A stretch of DNA of 64,000 nt from Oscillospiraceae bacterium (GTDB lineage Bacteria; Bacillota; Clostridia; Oscillospirales; JAAYOS01), in contig JAISEG010000006.1 of NCBI GenBank assembly GCA_031264245.1, forward strand, positions 1-64,000, written 5' to 3'. The notes below the pieces were generated by a model. That model made no database searches and was not told where the DNA came from. It saw only the letters and a list, made by a program, of their open reading frames with translations. Shown one piece after another: positions 13,863 through 41,183 of the stretch (positions are counted from its first letter, which is position 1; each line of letters opens with the position of its first letter). The translations under genes were made by a program, and so were the position numbers.

Positions 13863-14564
13863 CTATTTGTCCTCTACTAAACGCTGCTGCTTAATTATTT
13901 TCTGCTGTTCAAGCATTACGTACTTTCTCAGCATCGTCCTCGTCTCGGGGGAATGGTCAATAAATCTGACCCCGACCTTGAAATAGGAGCTTGTCACCGT
14001 CTCGACCTTGGTGCACTGCATGACCTCGCTGAGAAATACCAGCGGGGTTGAATCCTCGGAGGGGAAGTTCAAAAACAGCTTTACAAATACCCTGATACCT
14101 TCGTCAAAACGCCTGTTGATCCTTATTCCCGCCCCCGTCTCGCTTATGTCCTCTGTCGTTCCGTTGAACTCAACCTTCTCATCCCCCGGCTGAGGCCTGA
14201 ATTGGAAGGGACCCTCAACGTATTCCCTGAGTGTGACGTCAAGCGACTTTTTCAGTCTGAACGACTCTCTGCGCTGCTGTTTTTGCGGCTTTGACAAAAT
14301 TTCAAGCGAGATCATTCTCACATTTCCGCTCATGCTGAGACCTTTTACCGACACCTCGATCATATACCGCCCGCTCTCGCGGTAAAAGTACAGCTCAAGC
14401 TTCTGATCCCTGAGCAAAATAACAGGAATCCCCCTGTACAATGGCGTCGAGACCATGATATTCCCCGCTTCGTCATAGTCCTCGATTTTTGTCCTGTAGG
14501 GCGAACCTTTCCCCGTGTACAGATCGATATTCTCCCCAATGTTCAATTTGTCTATATCGACCAT
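13863..14564 (-). CDS. YcgR-type PilZ-domain protein (c-di-GMP receptor)
   Basis: The product is 233 residues. An N-terminal YcgR-like beta-domain (residues 1-95) precedes a PilZ domain starting at QQRRESFRLKK, which supplies the RxxxR motif, and DISETGAGIRI, which supplies the D/NxSxxG motif. Together they bind cyclic di-GMP. YcgR-family proteins slow or stop the flagellar motor when c-di-GMP rises. Its position between flhG and sigD fits clostridial operons. A degenerate GGDEF protein is encoded about 15 kb away in the same island, but no intact diguanylate cyclase is in the window. Confidence 0.88.
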   Translation of the reverse strand: MVDIDKLNIGENIDLYTGKGSPYRTKIEDYDEAGNIMVSTPLYRGIPVILLRDQKLELYFYRESGRYMIEVSVKGLSMSGNVRMISLEILSKPQKQQRRESFRLKKSLDVTLREYVEGPFQFRPQPGDEKVEFNGTTEDISETGAGIRINRRFDEGIRVFVKLFLNFPSEDSTPLVFLSEVMQCTKVETVTSSYFKVGVRFIDHSPETRTMLRKYVMLEQQKIIKQQRLVEDK

Positions 14565-26788: not shown

Positions 26789-27241
26789 TCACTGCTTTTT
26801 GTCAAAATAATCGGGACCCGCAATATATCCGGCGGCGCCGTACGCTCCGATACCCCTTCTGTTTTGGTTGAGCCGTTTCGCCTCGGAGAGCGAAGCGTCC
26901 ATACTGTCCCTTATGCTTTTTTCGCTCTGCACGTCCAGCTCGCGTATCTGCGTAATCACACCGTCTATCCGGCTTTGAAGCGCGTCTATCTCACTGTCCC
27001 CGATCTCATTTGTCCCGTTTGCGAGATAAGATTGCATCAGAACGTTAATTTCGTGATGCAATCCCTCTATTTTATCAATATTCACTCTGCGCTCATTCAG
27101 GCTTGAGGTCAGCAGACCGGCGTCTATGTCTTCGGCGCTCACTATCTCTCTCTGCTTTTTTGTAATTTCGAGGCACTCTTTTACGTACCGCTCCTTACTT
27201 TCCAGCAGTTTAATAAGCCTGTCGCGGTCAAAATCGCTCAT
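26789..27241 (-). CDS. FlgN/FliT-like export chaperone (second FlgN-type protein)
   Basis: The product is 150 residues, almost entirely helical (FDRDRLIKLLESKERYVKEC and KIEGLHHEINVLMQSYLANG), ending in a Gly-rich tail (IGAYGAAGYIAGPDYFDKKQ). Size, helix pattern and position between fliS and yaaR suggest a FliT/FlgN-like chaperone for a late export substrate such as FliD. The ATG at 27241 has AAAGGAAAG upstream; the frame extends to 27307 but overlaps fliS without a conserved pattern. Name by position, not by clear homology. Confidence 0.65.
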   Translation of the reverse strand: MSDFDRDRLIKLLESKERYVKECLEITKKQREIVSAEDIDAGLLTSSLNERRVNIDKIEGLHHEINVLMQSYLANGTNEIGDSEIDALQSRIDGVITQIRELDVQSEKSIRDSMDASLSEAKRLNQNRRGIGAYGAAGYIAGPDYFDKKQ

Positions 27242-27281: not shown

Positions 27282-27683
27282 TCACTCGCACAGCTCCGCC
27301 CGACCACCCGCGGACAAGCTCACTTCTCTCCAGGTATCCCTGAACGTATCCACAATTTCGAAGAGCGGGGTTATCCTCTCCGCGTCCTTGGAAATGTTTA
27401 TCTGTGCAAGCTCACCCAGAAGAAATTCATAGATATCCAGAAGCTGCTGGGATATTTCATAGCTCATGTCAAGGCTGTTTATAAGCTCGGCAATAATTTC
27501 CTGCGCGCGTATCAATTTGGCGTGAGCGGTCGCCATATCGCTCTTCACTATCGCCCGCTGTCCCATAAGAAGGTTCTTTTTAAGCCCCTCAAACAGCATA
27601 ACTATCAGCTCCGCAGGGCTCGCCGTAAGAATACCCTGTTTTTTGTAAGCGTCCTGCGGATTTGTTATCATTAATGGTTGCAT
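27282..27683 (-). CDS. fliS: Flagellin chaperone FliS
   Basis: The product is 133 residues. The opening ITNPQDAYKKQGILTASPAE followed by LIVMLFEGLKKNLLMGQRAI is the FliS signature, with LINSLDMSYEISQQLLDIYE in the second half. FliS caps the flagellin C-terminus before export and, in Firmicutes, cooperates with FliW. GGAG precedes the ATG by 6 nt. It lies 118 bp downstream of fliD. Confidence 0.94.
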   Translation of the reverse strand: MQPLMITNPQDAYKKQGILTASPAELIVMLFEGLKKNLLMGQRAIVKSDMATAHAKLIRAQEIIAELINSLDMSYEISQQLLDIYEFLLGELAQINISKDAERITPLFEIVDTFRDTWREVSLSAGGRAELCE

Positions 27684-27801: not shown

Positions 27802-29391
27802 TTATTTGTTGTTCATCCCCAACATATTTACAAGCGAGGTGGACTGGTTTTGCAGGTCGGCAAGCGCTTTTTCCATCGCGGCGTATTTCAGGTAATATTT
27901 CTCCTCGAGATCTATCATCTTTTCCTGCATGGAGGATATCTTCGTGTTCAGCTCCCTCATGCTTCTGTCTATGGACTCGAAGGTACTTACCTGAGACTCC
28001 TTGGTGTAATTGTCAAAGATAGTGTTTATGCGGTTCATAAGCCCGCTTTGCTTATACGCCGTCGTCTTGTCCTCCGAGCTGGAGGTCGCGATAAACACAT
28101 TCATTACCTTGTCCGCGTCCTTTTCCAGAGCGGCTCTCAGCGCGTCCTCGTCGAGCGATATCTGACCCTTTTTCCCTTCGAAATAGTTGCCTGTCCTCAG
28201 CCCTATGTCCGCCGGGGTGAGCCCGGCGCTTTCCACCGTCTGGTATAACGCGGACCTCAAGCTCTCGGTAACGGCGCGTATCCCCGCGTCATTGTAGAGG
28301 ATGCCCTTTTTCGCGATTTTTTCCCAGTCCTCTATCTGCTTTTCGGTCATGCTCGCTTTTTCTTCGTCGGTGAGCGGGATATACGACTTTTCGTCAATTG
28401 TCTTTCTGTCCGAAATCATGCTTTCCAGCTTTGCTATCATGGTGTTGTAGCCTTCGACAAATTCCTTTACCTTGTCTATGACCGATTGATAGTTGGCTGT
28501 AATATCAATGCGCATCTCCCCGTCGTCAGCATAGCTTGTGGTTTTGTTGAGGGTGTATATCACGCCGTCAATTTTAAAATTGTTCGACGCGCGCTTCACC
28601 TCTATGGCGTTTGCGTAGCCCGGGTTGAACTTGTCCTCAAACAGGACTATGGCGTCCTGACCGTTTTCGTAATTGCCCGCCGATATTCCGAATGCGCCGG
28701 CAGCTCCAAAGGCGTTGCCCTTAAGGTTCACGATATTCAGCGAGGTTTCCTCGCCCATCTCCTTAGTGGCGAAGGATATCTTGTCGCTCAGCCTGCTGTA
28801 CGACATAGTGACCCCAAGCTCCGGGTCGCCGTTTATAGTATTCATCATAGACTGCAAAGTATCGGTGTCTTTAAATGTAAATTCCTTCCCGTTTATGCTG
28901 AAGGAAATAACATTTGAACCGTCCACGGTCTCAAATTGCAGCTCGTTTGCAAATTCCAGGTCCTTAAGCATGGCAAAGTTGCCGCTTGCAAGCTCTCCGT
29001 TCTTTGACACGGCGGCGGAGCTGGAGGCGCTCGCGGCTTTAGCAAGCTGCTTTACCTCGTAGATGTTCAGCGTCCCGGCCGACGCCTCGTAGTTCGCGGA
29101 TACCGTGACGGCGCCGCTTTTCCCGCCGGTCACGTTCACATCAAACGCCTTGTAGGTGTTTGAACCCATCATCGACTTGGAGCCTAGCAGCCTCAAGTAA
29201 GTATCTTTAAAATCGGTTATGTCGCTTTTCACAGTCTTGAGGGCGTCCTGCCGCCATTGCAGCGTCGTGCGCGAACGAAGGCTTCGGTTCACCTTGAGCT
29301 GCTCTATCTGCATCAAGCTTTTAATTATGGAATCAGTGTCCATCCCGGAGGACAGCCCGGTGAGTCTGGTCGGCGTTAAATTTATAGCCAT
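27802..29391 (-). CDS. fliD: Flagellar filament cap FliD (HAP2)
   Basis: The product is 529 residues. The N-terminal region (LTPTRLTGLSSGMDTDSIIK) and C-terminal coiled coil (SIDRSMRELNTKISSMQEKM, then YYLKYAAMEKALADLQNQST) are the conserved FliD ends that form the cap legs; the centre is the variable D2/D3 region. FliD pentamers fold flagellin at the tip. The ATG at 29391 follows GAGAGG; the frame is open to 29445 but the extra residues are not FliD-like. A SigD-like -10 element (GCCGATAA) lies just upstream at 29426-29433. Confidence 0.95.
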   Translation of the reverse strand: MAINLTPTRLTGLSSGMDTDSIIKSLMQIEQLKVNRSLRSRTTLQWRQDALKTVKSDITDFKDTYLRLLGSKSMMGSNTYKAFDVNVTGGKSGAVTVSANYEASAGTLNIYEVKQLAKAASASSSAAVSKNGELASGNFAMLKDLEFANELQFETVDGSNVISFSINGKEFTFKDTDTLQSMMNTINGDPELGVTMSYSRLSDKISFATKEMGEETSLNIVNLKGNAFGAAGAFGISAGNYENGQDAIVLFEDKFNPGYANAIEVKRASNNFKIDGVIYTLNKTTSYADDGEMRIDITANYQSVIDKVKEFVEGYNTMIAKLESMISDRKTIDEKSYIPLTDEEKASMTEKQIEDWEKIAKKGILYNDAGIRAVTESLRSALYQTVESAGLTPADIGLRTGNYFEGKKGQISLDEDALRAALEKDADKVMNVFIATSSSEDKTTAYKQSGLMNRINTIFDNYTKESQVSTFESIDRSMRELNTKISSMQEKMIDLEEKYYLKYAAMEKALADLQNQSTSLVNMLGMNNK

Positions 29392-29425
29392 TTTGCACCT
29401 CTCATTCAAGCGGAAACATGTATTG

Positions 29426-29433
29426 TTATCGGC
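29426..29433 (-). promoter_or_regulatory. Candidate SigD (sigma-28) -10 element upstream of fliD
   Basis: On the minus strand the octamer GCCGATAA matches the SigD -10 consensus and lies 35 nt before the fliD ATG. The -35 (expected TAAA) is poor at 14-15 nt spacing, so the promoter is tentative. Confidence 0.45.
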
Positions 29434-29562
29434 TGATTTTTCCATGATAAATTCTTATATTAGACTTTTCGTGCTTTTCGCGAAAAACTTTAGGGATTGT
29501 TCAAAAAATAGCAATATAACTAAAGTTGTTTTTTTAATAACCGCTGTTAAGGCTGTCTAAAA

Positions 29563-29660
29563 AACCATTTTTCACGGACGCGCGATGCGCTCCCCTACAC
29601 GAACCCTTGGAAACATGGTGTGTTTTTGTAGGGGCGCGCACCTGCGCGTCCGCAATTTTT
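29563..29660. repeat. Pair of TGTAGGGGCG-type hairpin repeats in inverted orientation
   Basis: Two related units lie here: 29563-29599 (minus orientation) and 29627-29660 (plus). Each reads TGTAGGGG, a GCGC-rich stem, then CGTCCG and AAAAATGG- or ATTTTT-like ends. The same unit recurs at 41147-41183 and in part at 44500-44533. The remainder of the 300-bp gap between fliD and the J-domain gene is AT-rich, with no gene seen. Confidence 0.65.
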
Positions 29661-29691: not shown

Positions 29692-30825
29692 TCAAAACGC
29701 TTTCTTTGAAAGCTTGTCGATATACGGCTTAAGCTCGCCGCCGGAATACGGGGCGAAGTCACATGTGACCCTTATATTCGTTTTGTTCCTCAGCGACGCG
29801 TCCCTCGCGATTTTCCCGCACAGCCTGTCGGTAATGACCCCGGCGTGCCTCTTCTTAAGCTCGATGTACAGCACCGCAAACCTTCCCTTCCCCAGGTACG
29901 CGGGGATATCCGTCTCCCTCAGGGAGGAGGTTATGGACCCGGCGGCCGACTCGAGGATGTCGACCATCGCTTCCTCCGAATAGAAGCCCAAAGCGGGCTC
30001 CACCCTGAAAAGCGCTATCACAAGCGACTGGTTGTACCTTTTGCACCTGTAAAGCTCCCTCTCGGCGTTCTTTAACAGACCCGTCAGGCTGAACATGTCC
30101 AGCTCCCTGCACATGTCCGCGCAGTATTCCTCCCACCGCTTCGCCATTTCCCCCTTTTCCTGCCTGGCGGAAAGGTTCTCGAACATCTTGGCTATCTCGT
30201 TCAAATCCCGGTAGCCCAGAAATACTCTCCACACACCGTTTTCACATATTGTAAACTTTGCCGCCTGGTAGCTTTCGGTGGCCTGTGTGGTCAGATTTTT
30301 TTCGGTGATAAAAATATGATGCCGCTTCGCGGGTACCGTCCTGCCATCCTCAAGGGTGAGCTTGGTCTGCTCGATTTCCCTTTTGTGGGAGCACTCGCGT
30401 ATGGAAAACAGCCTTTGCACGGATTTTCTCCACTTGCAAAAGCTTTGCAGCGTGACATATTGCCTGTCATAGATGCTGAGACGGGTGTACGCCTTTTCGT
30501 ACGCACCGTTTAAAAGCGCGTCAAAATAGTCGCGGATAGCGGAAAAAGCCCGTTCATTCTCCAGCTCCCGCTGCCTCGCCTCCCACTGGACGCCCGGACC
30601 GCGCGCCCTTCCCGAAAACGAGTTGTCGTACGCCGCCCTGCTTGAATCGTCGCACAGTATCGAATACGCGACGTTGATTTGCTTCATCGCGTCCTCGGCC
30701 GACGGGTCGCGGTTGACGTCCGGATGATAAAGCTTGCACAATCGCCGGTATGACGAGATTATTGCCGCCTTATCCGCTCCAAACCGGACCTGTAATATTT
30801 TATAGTAGTCCGCAGGTTGATTCAT
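29692..30825 (-). CDS. J-domain protein with C-terminal degenerate GGDEF-like domain
   Basis: The product is 377 residues. Residues 6-70 are a J domain with an intact HPD (34-36, KLYHPDVNRD), which would stimulate an Hsp70 such as DnaK. Residues of about 85-235 may be an NTF2-like fold (FSAIRDYFDALLNGAYEKAY, ending CENGVWRVFLGY). From about 245 the pattern resembles GGDEF domains: LTGLLKNAERELYRCKRYNQ, a helix, then DIPAYLGKGRFAVLYIELKK, where GKGRF replaces GGDEF, so cyclase activity is unlikely. No membrane segment. It lies between the CHAP-like gene and fliD. The role is unknown; chaperone recruitment tied to nucleotide sensing during flagellar assembly is speculation. Confidence 0.75.
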   Translation of the reverse strand: MNQPADYYKILQVRFGADKAAIISSYRRLCKLYHPDVNRDPSAEDAMKQINVAYSILCDDSSRAAYDNSFSGRARGPGVQWEARQRELENERAFSAIRDYFDALLNGAYEKAYTRLSIYDRQYVTLQSFCKWRKSVQRLFSIRECSHKREIEQTKLTLEDGRTVPAKRHHIFITEKNLTTQATESYQAAKFTICENGVWRVFLGYRDLNEIAKMFENLSARQEKGEMAKRWEEYCADMCRELDMFSLTGLLKNAERELYRCKRYNQSLVIALFRVEPALGFYSEEAMVDILESAAGSITSSLRETDIPAYLGKGRFAVLYIELKKRHAGVITDRLCGKIARDASLRNKTNIRVTCDFAPYSGGELKPYIDKLSKKAF

Positions 30826-30877: not shown

Positions 30878-31924
30878 TTATTCGTGCACATAATATTTTA
30901 CCGCGCCCCTCTGGCTTTGACTGAAGGCGGAGGACAAATATGTATACCTGTAGTTCTCCCGTCCCGCCTGCGAAACCGTAACTCCCCTGAGCTTATCGTA
31001 GCTCATATCGTTTGAAGGGCAGACTATCTGGACATGCCCGGCTTTTCCGCTCGGGTTCTTCCACGCCGTCACGGCGGGCTTGCCCGAGTTCGCGTAAGCC
31101 TGGGCTTCCCCGGCGCTTACCTCCCGCCATCCGTTTTCCCTCCCCCGGCTCGCAAGCCAGTCGCAGACTCCGTTTGCGTCCAGCTCGTACGCGCCCTTCG
31201 TGTCCGGGTAGGTCCTCGCCCCGCCGGTGCCTTTGTCCGCGTAGTGCGGTATCTCGCAGCCAAGCGCGCTTGTCACGTCCCAGACATATATGTTGCAGTA
31301 GGTGTCGTTTCCCCTGCGGTAAGGCAGGTACCTTTCCGCCGTCTCCACCTCGAACTGCGATATTACCTGATTCAGCCTGCCGGGGCTTCTGTCCCCCTCG
31401 TCGGAGGTGACCGCCGCCGCGGTCGGACGCCACGCCTCTGCCGGCAGCACCGTTCCCTTTGACAGGTCGGGGTCATACGTGTTCCCAAACACCCCGCTGT
31501 CGATCGTATCCAGTATATAAGGGTCGTAGCCCGACCCCATCACCTCATCGCGAAGCGGCTTAACGTCGCCCTTCAGCTGGGTGAGCATGGAGGACATCAT
31601 GCTCATAAGCATGGACATCTCCTTGCTTTCGCCGTTTTGCATCATCAGGCAGAGCATAAATATAGCTGTCTCGGCGTCTGACGCCTCGCCTGTCGCCGCC
31701 GCGCCCAGAATCATGCTCTGTATGCTCGCCGCGCTTGAAATGGGCGGCTCCGCCGTTCCGCCCTCAGACGGGTTAGACATCGCGATACTGCCCTCGACAA
31801 GGCTTTGCTCAAGGGTCTCGGAAAGCAGCTCGGAAAAATTTATCTCCCCGCCGCTGTCAGCCGCGTTTTTTACCGCCTGGATATCCCGTGTATATGAAGC
31901 CGTATTAATTTTCGCCACATCCAT
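30878..31924 (-). CDS. Putative CHAP-like cell-wall hydrolase of the flagellar island
   Basis: The product is 348 residues with no signal peptide. The N-terminal half is low-complexity and Met/Ser-rich (KEMSMLMSMMSSMLTQLKGD). The C-terminal half has a likely catalytic Cys in NDTYCNIYVWDVTSALG and a His in SGKAGHVQIVCPS, with GREVSAGEAQAYANSGKPAV-like spacing, resembling CHAP/NlpC-type amidase domains. Lack of a Sec signal fits export through the flagellar apparatus, and its position suggests a FlgJ-like role in opening peptidoglycan for the rod. The family call is by motif only. Confidence 0.7.
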   Translation of the reverse strand: MDVAKINTASYTRDIQAVKNAADSGGEINFSELLSETLEQSLVEGSIAMSNPSEGGTAEPPISSAASIQSMILGAAATGEASDAETAIFMLCLMMQNGESKEMSMLMSMMSSMLTQLKGDVKPLRDEVMGSGYDPYILDTIDSGVFGNTYDPDLSKGTVLPAEAWRPTAAAVTSDEGDRSPGRLNQVISQFEVETAERYLPYRRGNDTYCNIYVWDVTSALGCEIPHYADKGTGGARTYPDTKGAYELDANGVCDWLASRGRENGWREVSAGEAQAYANSGKPAVTAWKNPSGKAGHVQIVCPSNDMSYDKLRGVTVSQAGRENYRYTYLSSAFSQSQRGAVKYYVHE

Positions 31925-32070: not shown

Positions 32071-32370
32071 TTATTTCACCGATTTTCTCAGTTTGTCGCC
32101 GTAGTCCCTGTCCAGCTCGCTTACAAACAGGAGAACCTTCGCCACCACCTCGTACAGTGACGGCGGTATTTCGTCCCCAATGCTGAGCCTCGCGAGCATC
32201 GAAGCGAGGTCCGGGTCGGGCATAACCGGCACACCGGCTTCCTCGGCGGCTTCAATTATTTTCTCGGCGACGAAGCCTTCCCCGAACGCCGCCAGAACAG
32301 GCGCGGAATGGTCGGCCGGATCATACTTTATTGCCGCGGCCCGCTTCCCCCGCTTATCGCTTTTTCCCAT
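32071..32370 (-). CDS. FlhB C-terminal-like protein (YlqH type)
   Basis: The product is 99 residues. It aligns by eye to the cytoplasmic part of FlhB just after the autocleavage loop: AAIKYDPADHSAPVLAAFGE matches FlhB ALRYEDGRSGAPVVVAKGQD, and LSIGDEIPPSLYEVVAKVLL matches IDDEIPPDFYQAVADILVYV. The NPTH site is absent. In B. subtilis the ylqG-ylqH pair has the same arrangement next to a FliK-like gene, as here. It may replace the cleaved FlhB fragment in export control. Confidence 0.85.
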   Translation of the reverse strand: MGKSDKRGKRAAAIKYDPADHSAPVLAAFGEGFVAEKIIEAAEEAGVPVMPDPDLASMLARLSIGDEIPPSLYEVVAKVLLFVSELDRDYGDKLRKSVK

Positions 32371-32411: not shown

Positions 32412-34094
32412 CTATATGCTCAGGTCAAAGCCCCGCTTCAGCCGCTTCTCATATTCGAAGAGGGACAGAAGCGCCTTGTCCGCCGTAGTGCGCTCGCCAC
32501 CCTGCCGCACCTTCAGCCCCGCAAGCTTAAACCCCGACTCGGAGAGCAGGCGGTGCAGCCCGGCTGTGTTCTGCCCTATAAACTCCCCCGCGGCGGGGCT
32601 GTCTACGGTCACGTTCAACGAAACGTCCTTCCCTCTGACCCCTATGAACGATTCTATATGTCCCATAAACGTCATGTCCAGCGCGAGAAGTATGTTGACG
32701 TTTTCCGGGTCGATTTTTTTCTGCCCTTTATTTTGCTTGAATACGTACAGCTCCGCCGTCCTCTGCTCGTTGTTGAGTATCACGGGTATCTGCGCGTATA
32801 CAAATTGATCTATGCTGTTCGTCAGCCTCACATGGTCGATCAGCCGCTGTGTCTGACCGGCGAGCGCCGTCTTTGACGCAAGCCCCGAGCCCTCCACCGC
32901 ATCCTTAAACAGACTGAGCCTGATTTCAAGCTCCTCCCGCGCTTTTTTCAGCTGACCGCTCCGGTCTTTGCCCCCCTCATCCAGCTTCGCAAACAAATTA
33001 TCAACAAATTCAGCCATTTTTTCCTGATAATCCGGGTTCTCCTCAATGTTTATGTTGCCAATATCCCGCAGAGTGTTTATAATGATATCCAACGTGCCGT
33101 TCACATTCTTCTCCGGCAGATTCGCAAAGGCGGGCATTTTTGTGAGCATCGACAAAATGCTGTCCCTGTCCGCGGGGGAGAAGACCGTACTCTCCGGAGC
33201 TTCCGCTCCGGTCACCGCTGCTTGTTCCCCCGAGGCGTGAAGCGCGGCGTTCCCCCGAAGCGGGACAACCTCTCCCGTCCCGGCCCCTTTGATACTTACA
33301 TCAGCCTCCGCATAGTCCCCGGCTCCGGCTCCCACAACGGCGGGTTCGGTTTGAGCCGCCGGTTTTCCGGTCGCCTTCGCCGCCACATCCTGTACCTCGG
33401 CATCTCCGGGCGCTTCGCCCGGAAGGACAGCCGCCCCGGCGGTCTCCGGATTCCCCTCCGGCTTCGTCAGGTTCCCGGTTCCCGGAATACTCATCTCCTC
33501 CGGCACGACCCGCGCGGAGCCTTCGGAAAGAACCGCCTTGGATATGTCCGCAAGCATATCCGCGCTTTTCACCTTCCCTTCGGTCAGCGCTTCGAACGCG
33601 TCTATAAGCGCCGGAGTGATTTCGGCGTCCAGATTCGCCGCGATAAACGCCGCCTTATCGAGTGAAATGCCCGGGCTGAGGTCAATTATCTCCTGCATCA
33701 TGTATATATTGCGCTCGGTTACCGGAAGCCGCAGATACTCAAGCCTCGCCGCGAGCAGCGCCGCCTGTCCGTCCGCCGCCGGAACGCTTATCTCCCCCGA
33801 AATATTCGGGTCGGCCGGGTATCCCGCCTCTCTTCCGACGCTGAGGACTATGGAGCCTCCGTTGTTTTCAAGCACGGTAAGCAAAACCCTCGCGCCCTCC
33901 TCAAGGACGATATTCCCCTCTATTCTCGCCTTTATCAGGCTGCCGTCGCCGGTTTTTAAATGCACGGCGCCGTCTCTGCTGAACAGCACCTTCGCCTCAA
34001 CCTGCTCTCCCTGATTCAGCTCCGCCTGCTTCGCTGCCTGCACGCCCTCGCCCGTCCCCTTGACCGCAGGCGTTAAAGCCTGGTCTATCCTCAT
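32412..34094 (-). CDS. FliK-like hook-length protein (YlqG type)
   Basis: The product is 560 residues. The N-terminus (MRIDQALTPAVKGTGEGVQA and a beta-rich QVEAKVLFSRDGAVHLKTGD segment) is followed by a long Ala/Gly/Pro-rich linker and a folded C-terminus (YAQIPVILNNEQRTAELYVF, ESFIGVRGKDVSLNVTVDSP, LLSESGFKLAGLKVRQGG) that fits the FliK C-terminal (Flg_hook) domain. Such proteins act as rulers or specificity switches with FlhB. It pairs with the FlhB-C-like gene 41 bp downstream. A SigD-like promoter lies upstream at 34279-34304. Whether it is the main FliK is unclear. Confidence 0.75.
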   Translation of the reverse strand: MRIDQALTPAVKGTGEGVQAAKQAELNQGEQVEAKVLFSRDGAVHLKTGDGSLIKARIEGNIVLEEGARVLLTVLENNGGSIVLSVGREAGYPADPNISGEISVPAADGQAALLAARLEYLRLPVTERNIYMMQEIIDLSPGISLDKAAFIAANLDAEITPALIDAFEALTEGKVKSADMLADISKAVLSEGSARVVPEEMSIPGTGNLTKPEGNPETAGAAVLPGEAPGDAEVQDVAAKATGKPAAQTEPAVVGAGAGDYAEADVSIKGAGTGEVVPLRGNAALHASGEQAAVTGAEAPESTVFSPADRDSILSMLTKMPAFANLPEKNVNGTLDIIINTLRDIGNINIEENPDYQEKMAEFVDNLFAKLDEGGKDRSGQLKKAREELEIRLSLFKDAVEGSGLASKTALAGQTQRLIDHVRLTNSIDQFVYAQIPVILNNEQRTAELYVFKQNKGQKKIDPENVNILLALDMTFMGHIESFIGVRGKDVSLNVTVDSPAAGEFIGQNTAGLHRLLSESGFKLAGLKVRQGGERTTADKALLSLFEYEKRLKRGFDLSI

Positions 34095-34259: not shown

Positions 34260-34278
34260 GTTTCCCTCTATAAAACAT

Positions 34279-34304
34279 ATATCGGCTTAAACCATTGTCA
34301 CTTA
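34279..34304 (-). promoter_or_regulatory. SigD (sigma-28) promoter for the ylqG operon
   Basis: On the minus strand TAAG (34301-34304) and GCCGATAT (34279-34286) are separated by 14 bp, close to the SigD consensus TAAA-N15-GCCGATAT. The leader to the ylqG ATG is about 185 nt and includes the 25-bp tandem repeat. Confidence 0.65.
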
Positions 34305-41146: not shown

Positions 41147-41183
41147 TGTAGGGGCGCGCATCGCGCGTCCGCGAAAAATGGTT
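41147..41183 (+). repeat. TGTAGGGGCG-type hairpin repeat
   Basis: This 37-bp unit reads TGTAGGGGCGCGC, a short loop, GCGCGTCCGCG, then AAAAATGGTT. It matches the two units at 29563-29660 and, in part, 44500-44533. It is flanked on the left by CCCCCAATTGGGGG (41131-41144). Confidence 0.7.

Follow-up and report, generated by a model that had tools for sequence, protein, structure and literature searches.

What is a J-domain protein that ends in a degenerate GGDEF domain doing among flagellar genes? The question is raised by an open reading frame at 29692 to 30825 (minus strand) of the window, a 64,000-nucleotide stretch of an Oscillospiraceae bacterium genome. The frame starts at an ATG and encodes a soluble protein of 377 amino acids and about 43 kDa, in which no hydrophobic segment was detected (highest 19-residue hydropathy, 0.85). 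The J domain (residues about 1 to 68; 30622 to 30825, minus strand) matched Pfam DnaJ over residues 6 to 67 past the cutoff (E value of 5.8e-20), and its HPD motif at residues 34 to 36 was present in 33/33 aligned relatives and in all 35 full-length members of the family. The C-terminal domain (residues about 236 to 377; 29695 to 30120, minus strand), which carries GKGRF at residues 312 to 316 in place of the GGDEF signature, gave a mere hint of GGDEF ancestry when the protein was searched by itself (E values of 0.09 for Pfam GGDEF and 0.003 for TIGR00254). A profile of this domain from 16 relatives, however, matched diguanylate cyclases among PDB sequences at an E value of 2e-19, with an RxxD motif and the signature region in register. 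Moreover, relatives passed the Pfam GGDEF cutoff (E value of 2e-12), and two of them, G241 (L066) and L148, passed the cutoffs for both DnaJ and GGDEF, with MecA_N falling slightly under. Consistent with the profile, a structure model built from four relatives placed residues 236 to 377 in an alpha/beta domain that aligned to GGDEF structures over 140 residues with a Z score of 17.4.

The middle domain (residues 86 to 232; 30130 to 30570, minus strand) returned chance matches only when its sequence was compared with PDB sequences. When modeled separately with 17 relatives as input, it adopted an NTF2-like fold, with a cone of helices packed on a curved sheet (pLDDT of 89), and the best Foldseek/VIA matches, with Z scores of 10 to 13, came from penicillin-binding proteins (MecA_N of PBP5 and PBP2a) and from SnoaL-like proteins. 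A first-pass annotation made from the DNA letters had described an intact HPD J domain, a possible NTF2-like region, and a C terminus of GGDEF pattern. All three were borne out, the second now by fold, and structure prediction over residues 240 to 377, where an unrelated fold would have spoken against the third, returned the GGDEF fold. Because the modeled folds, the profile, and relatives that pass both the DnaJ and the GGDEF cutoffs agree, we conclude that the J/NTF2-like/GGDEF architecture is secure.

Proteins of this architecture were found in 17 of the 394 genomes of the order, of which 14 belong to one family, f2, and one each to the window's own family (f1), f13, and f17. Class and phylum samples added carriers G449, G476, and G575 and later G991 and G1070, such that the full architecture occurs in 14 genomes of f2 and in several other Bacillota lineages, with 35 distinct full-length members. 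A single-sequence scan of named genomes returned zero relatives, and an alignment query recovered them: metagenome-assembled genomes (MAGs) of Oscillospiraceae from termite guts, one Clostridiales MAG (L070), and Pseudobacteroides cellulosolvens, the sole isolate among the full-length members found. The bins coded Nt, Th, Co, and Mx are those from termites. Class-level matches of about 680 amino acids were rejected as J proteins, as the two examined were penicillin-binding proteins with an NTF2-like N-terminal domain, and G698 and G682 were rejected as lipoproteins. A contig titled Acidobacteriota (L096) encodes an f2-like J protein beside fliD-fliS and was left out of the counts as a probable misbinning. 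We conclude that the family is conserved within Bacillota and that its distribution is rare and patchy.

The degenerate domain was compared with intact GGDEF domains in an alignment of 33 J family members and 26 intact domains that the carrier genomes encode. At 40 positions conserved in the intact domains, the J family had a median retention of 14%. The GG[DE]EF signature was present in 0/33 members, the metal-binding aspartates were kept in 1 to 2 of the 33, and the two residues of the ND motif were kept in 4/33 and 0/33. Taken together, the metal and guanine-contact positions (DxD, FK, ND, the second G, and both acids of GGEEF) were kept in 0 to 5 members. As the active site is lost in every relative, diguanylate cyclase activity or GTP sensing at the old site is unlikely.

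The exception to this decay is an I-site-like RxxD motif (R303-E-T-D306; 29908 to 29919, minus strand), which sits five residues ahead of the lost signature, the spacing of known I-sites. R303 and D306 were kept in 33/33 aligned members and in two later ones, for a total of 35/35, and they were the sole fully retained positions among the canonical 40 in a domain that has otherwise diverged to about 20% identity. Moreover, a basic residue (R or K) lies 28 residues past D306 in 31/33 members (rows L052 and L069 being read by eye), a position that we take to correspond to R390 of PleD. We note that RxxD is not in itself unusual, as it was found in 22 of the 26 intact domains, and what matters is that nothing else was fully retained. 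The four intact domains that lack RxxD indicate that the motif is dispensable for the GGDEF fold, and RxxD is the usual ancestral state and was in part inherited by the J family. Sole full retention of RxxD is the main support for c-di-GMP sensing but carries limited weight, both because the motif is ancestral and because its enrichment over the intact set is modest (Fisher's test, P = 0.03). If the J protein senses a nucleotide, the retained I-site points to c-di-GMP.

Among the 17 carriers of the order, other GGDEF proteins were found in 16/17 and PilZ proteins in 14/17. In one flagellated genome that is 99% complete (G010; locus L053), searches found 0 other GGDEF, 0 EAL, and 0 PilZ proteins, an apparent loss of c-di-GMP signaling, and the J protein was nonetheless retained, with its motif reading RIID. 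This genome argues against obligatory c-di-GMP sensing: either c-di-GMP is made there by a route that was not searched, or the GGDEF domain works there without it. It also fits the strongest of the alternatives, namely that the protein is a flagellar J protein whose dead GGDEF domain serves as a nucleotide-free scaffold for interaction or dimerization, with RxxD maintained because it forms a salt bridge or part of an interface. Loss of the active site across the family is likewise what such a scaffold would predict. Complete retention of RxxD at exact I-site spacing, together with the basic residue at +28, in a domain of about 20% identity is harder to reconcile with a purely structural role, as is the absence of the motif from 4/26 domains that fold without it, and we consider the alternative somewhat unlikely.

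The case for a flagellar role begins with the neighbors of the gene (coordinates in this paragraph are for the minus strand). The unit is headed by a FliK-like gene, ylqG (32412 to 34094; Pfam Flg_hook, E value of 1e-9), followed by a ylqH-like gene for an FlhB C-terminal domain protein (32071 to 32370; Bac_export_2, E value of 9e-19) and by a gene for a conserved cysteine-containing protein without a Pfam match (TYCNI...GHVQIV; 30878 to 31924). The J open reading frame starts about 50 bp past the end of the latter and leaves a gap of about 250 bp to fliD, which encodes the filament cap (27802 to 29445; FliD_N and FliD_C), and a fliS-like export chaperone gene lies beyond (27282 to 27683; assigned by sequence and syntenic in relatives). 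FliK, FlhB C-terminal-like, FliD, FlgN-like (at 26789), and PilZ/YcgR proteins mark the neighbors in the window as flagellar and chemotactic. A SigD-like motif, TAAG-N14-GCCGATAT (34272 to 34304, minus strand), was predicted from sequence about 210 bp upstream of ylqG and is one of just two in the entire window. The unit headed by ylqG with a putative SigD-like promoter, which the first-pass annotation had proposed, was recovered, as was a PilZ protein in the island: it is of the YcgR type (13863 to 14564, minus strand; PilZ, E value of 1.5e-14; PilZNR, E value of 1.2e-11) and is the island's candidate c-di-GMP receptor.

Two further features of the neighborhood deserve comment. The gene for the cysteine-containing protein is conserved ahead of J in seven flagellar clusters, and its product has an invariant cysteine (TYCNI/TFCNI) and histidine (HVQIV/HVQMV), residues suggestive of a cysteine hydrolase, perhaps one that acts on the cell wall. 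Between the J gene and fliD lies a palindromic element (29575 to 29660) with arms of GTAGGGG[CA]GCGC, and another arm occurs at 41148, for three matches in the window against 0.03 expected. The element looks like a small repeated element of the MITE type. An inverted-repeat search of the J-fliD gap at default settings reported none, though an imperfect palindrome is visible in the sequence.

Absence of linkage to flagellar genes in relatives would also have spoken against the first-pass annotation, and linkage was in fact seen, although not universally. The window's clade comprises 8 loci with tree support of 100/100, and the J gene was located in a flagellar/chemotaxis cluster in 8/8, usually flanked by the cysteine-containing protein and fliD-fliS. 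The order was fliK-ylqH-Cys protein-J-fliD-fliS in L065, L071, and L073 and fliD-fliS-..-Cys protein-J-flgK-flgL in L067. Two other lineages were also linked. A locus distant in the tree (L094) reads flagellin-flaG-fliD-fliS-small ORF-J, an independent linkage, and the same protein occurs in G575 (L150); in a third lineage (L075, L085, and L087), the order J-ORF-ylqH places a ylqH homologue close downstream. By contrast, except for fapA in three loci, no flagellar genes were found near the J gene in 13 f2 loci, G241, L090 to L092, or G991. In seven f2 loci (L051, L052, L054, L056, L057, L059, and L060), the gene after J encodes a conserved metallophosphoesterase (about 197 amino acids), and in three f2 loci fapA comes next; outside f2, unlinked J genes also occur in unrelated surroundings. 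At L093 (9032 to 9964) and L095 (8781 to 9704), the gene preceding J encodes a response regulator whose GGDEF-type domain has the signature GGDDF.

Flagellin co-occurrence was also striking but is weaker evidence than synteny. Flagellin was encoded by 68/394 genomes of the order (17%) and by 17/17 carriers, and it was also found in G449, G476, and G575, for 20/20 carriers tested. A naive hypergeometric test in the order gave 2e-14, a value inflated by shared ancestry, and the counts are phylogenetically nonindependent, as most carriers belong to one family. In f2, 14/17 flagellated genomes carry the J protein, and restriction to flagellated genomes is common to all four families, f1, f2, f13, and f17. 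The unlinked loci would be explained if the protein were a general J protein whose location in flagellar clusters is incidental to one clade. Such a view is distinctly unlikely given linkage in three parts of the tree, with 8/8 loci in the window's clade, and given flagellin in every carrier tested. We conclude that a flagellar role is well supported in the window's clade and plausible elsewhere. Finally, binding of GTP or another mononucleotide at the old active site has in its favor that the GGDEF fold was kept and is highly improbable with so few metal and guanine contacts surviving.

We tentatively favor, at somewhat less than even confidence, the explanation that the protein is a class C co-chaperone through which DnaK would reach flagellar clients and whose activity c-di-GMP would tune at the I-site, both the ligand and the client being presumptive. 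The J domain, to judge from its HPD motif and the presence of dnaK, would recruit the cell's DnaK and stimulate its ATPase. The NTF2-like domain would hold a client or a partner from the flagellum; a late export substrate or an export chaperone near FliD/FliS is the most plausible candidate, as suggested by synteny with these genes. The dead GGDEF domain would be a regulatory module in which c-di-GMP at the retained I-site may shift conformation or dimerization and thereby turn chaperone delivery up or down. Within the window's clade, the protein would be dedicated to flagellar assembly. A dedicated flagellar co-chaperone is reasonable because HPD is intact, because dnaK and canonical dnaJ are both present in the window's own genome, because DnaK, DnaJ, and GrpE are required for flagella in Escherichia coli (Shi 1992, as cited in PMC10055731), and because DnaK binds FliC in Pseudomonas aeruginosa (PMC11816700). 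That the protein is a c-di-GMP-gated Hsp40 for flagellar assembly, in which the second messenger directly controls DnaK delivery to clients, is a possibility that we hold with greater reserve.

Parts of this proposal have precedents. PssE (Lmo0531) of Listeria, PelD, and YdaK of Bacillus resemble the J protein in having a destroyed signature with RxxD five residues upstream, and PssE was predicted to be a receptor from that pattern and then confirmed, with a Kd for c-di-GMP of 0.8 uM (PMC4125290). PssE and PelD differ from the J protein, whose I-site is predicted from sequence, in being regulators of exopolysaccharide synthesis and in lacking a J domain. CsdK1 and CsdK2 of Myxococcus xanthus likewise fuse a c-di-GMP-type domain to the Hsp70 machinery, but the domain is PilZ rather than GGDEF, the fusion is to DnaK itself, and the client is the chromosome-acting CdbS (PMC10313047). 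SflA of Vibrio is a J-domain protein that affects flagellation, as an inhibitor (PMC7226244), but it is a Vibrio-specific membrane protein with a periplasmic TPR/Sel1-like domain encoded outside flagellar clusters, whereas the present protein has different domains and no hydrophobic segment. Canonical DnaJ and CbpA share the J domain with HPD; the present protein instead has NTF2-like and GGDEF domains, and its Pfam matches included neither DnaJ_C nor zinc repeats, which sets it apart from class A and B DnaJ proteins. Titles and abstracts of the open-license papers searched described no fusion of a J domain or DnaJ to GGDEF.

That flagellum synthesis requires DnaK and DnaJ has been recognized since 1992, and no J protein that is both dedicated and signal-bearing is known to us from among genes for the flagellum. 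With its J domain and GGDEF domain of the receptor type, the present family raises the questions of whether c-di-GMP acts on Hsp70 co-chaperones and of which flagellar parts need Hsp70, and one soluble protein makes both testable. If the proposal is true, protein folding and motility signaling would be wired together in a single protein, and motility would be controlled by a further route, additional to the PilZ brakes and transcription factors already known.
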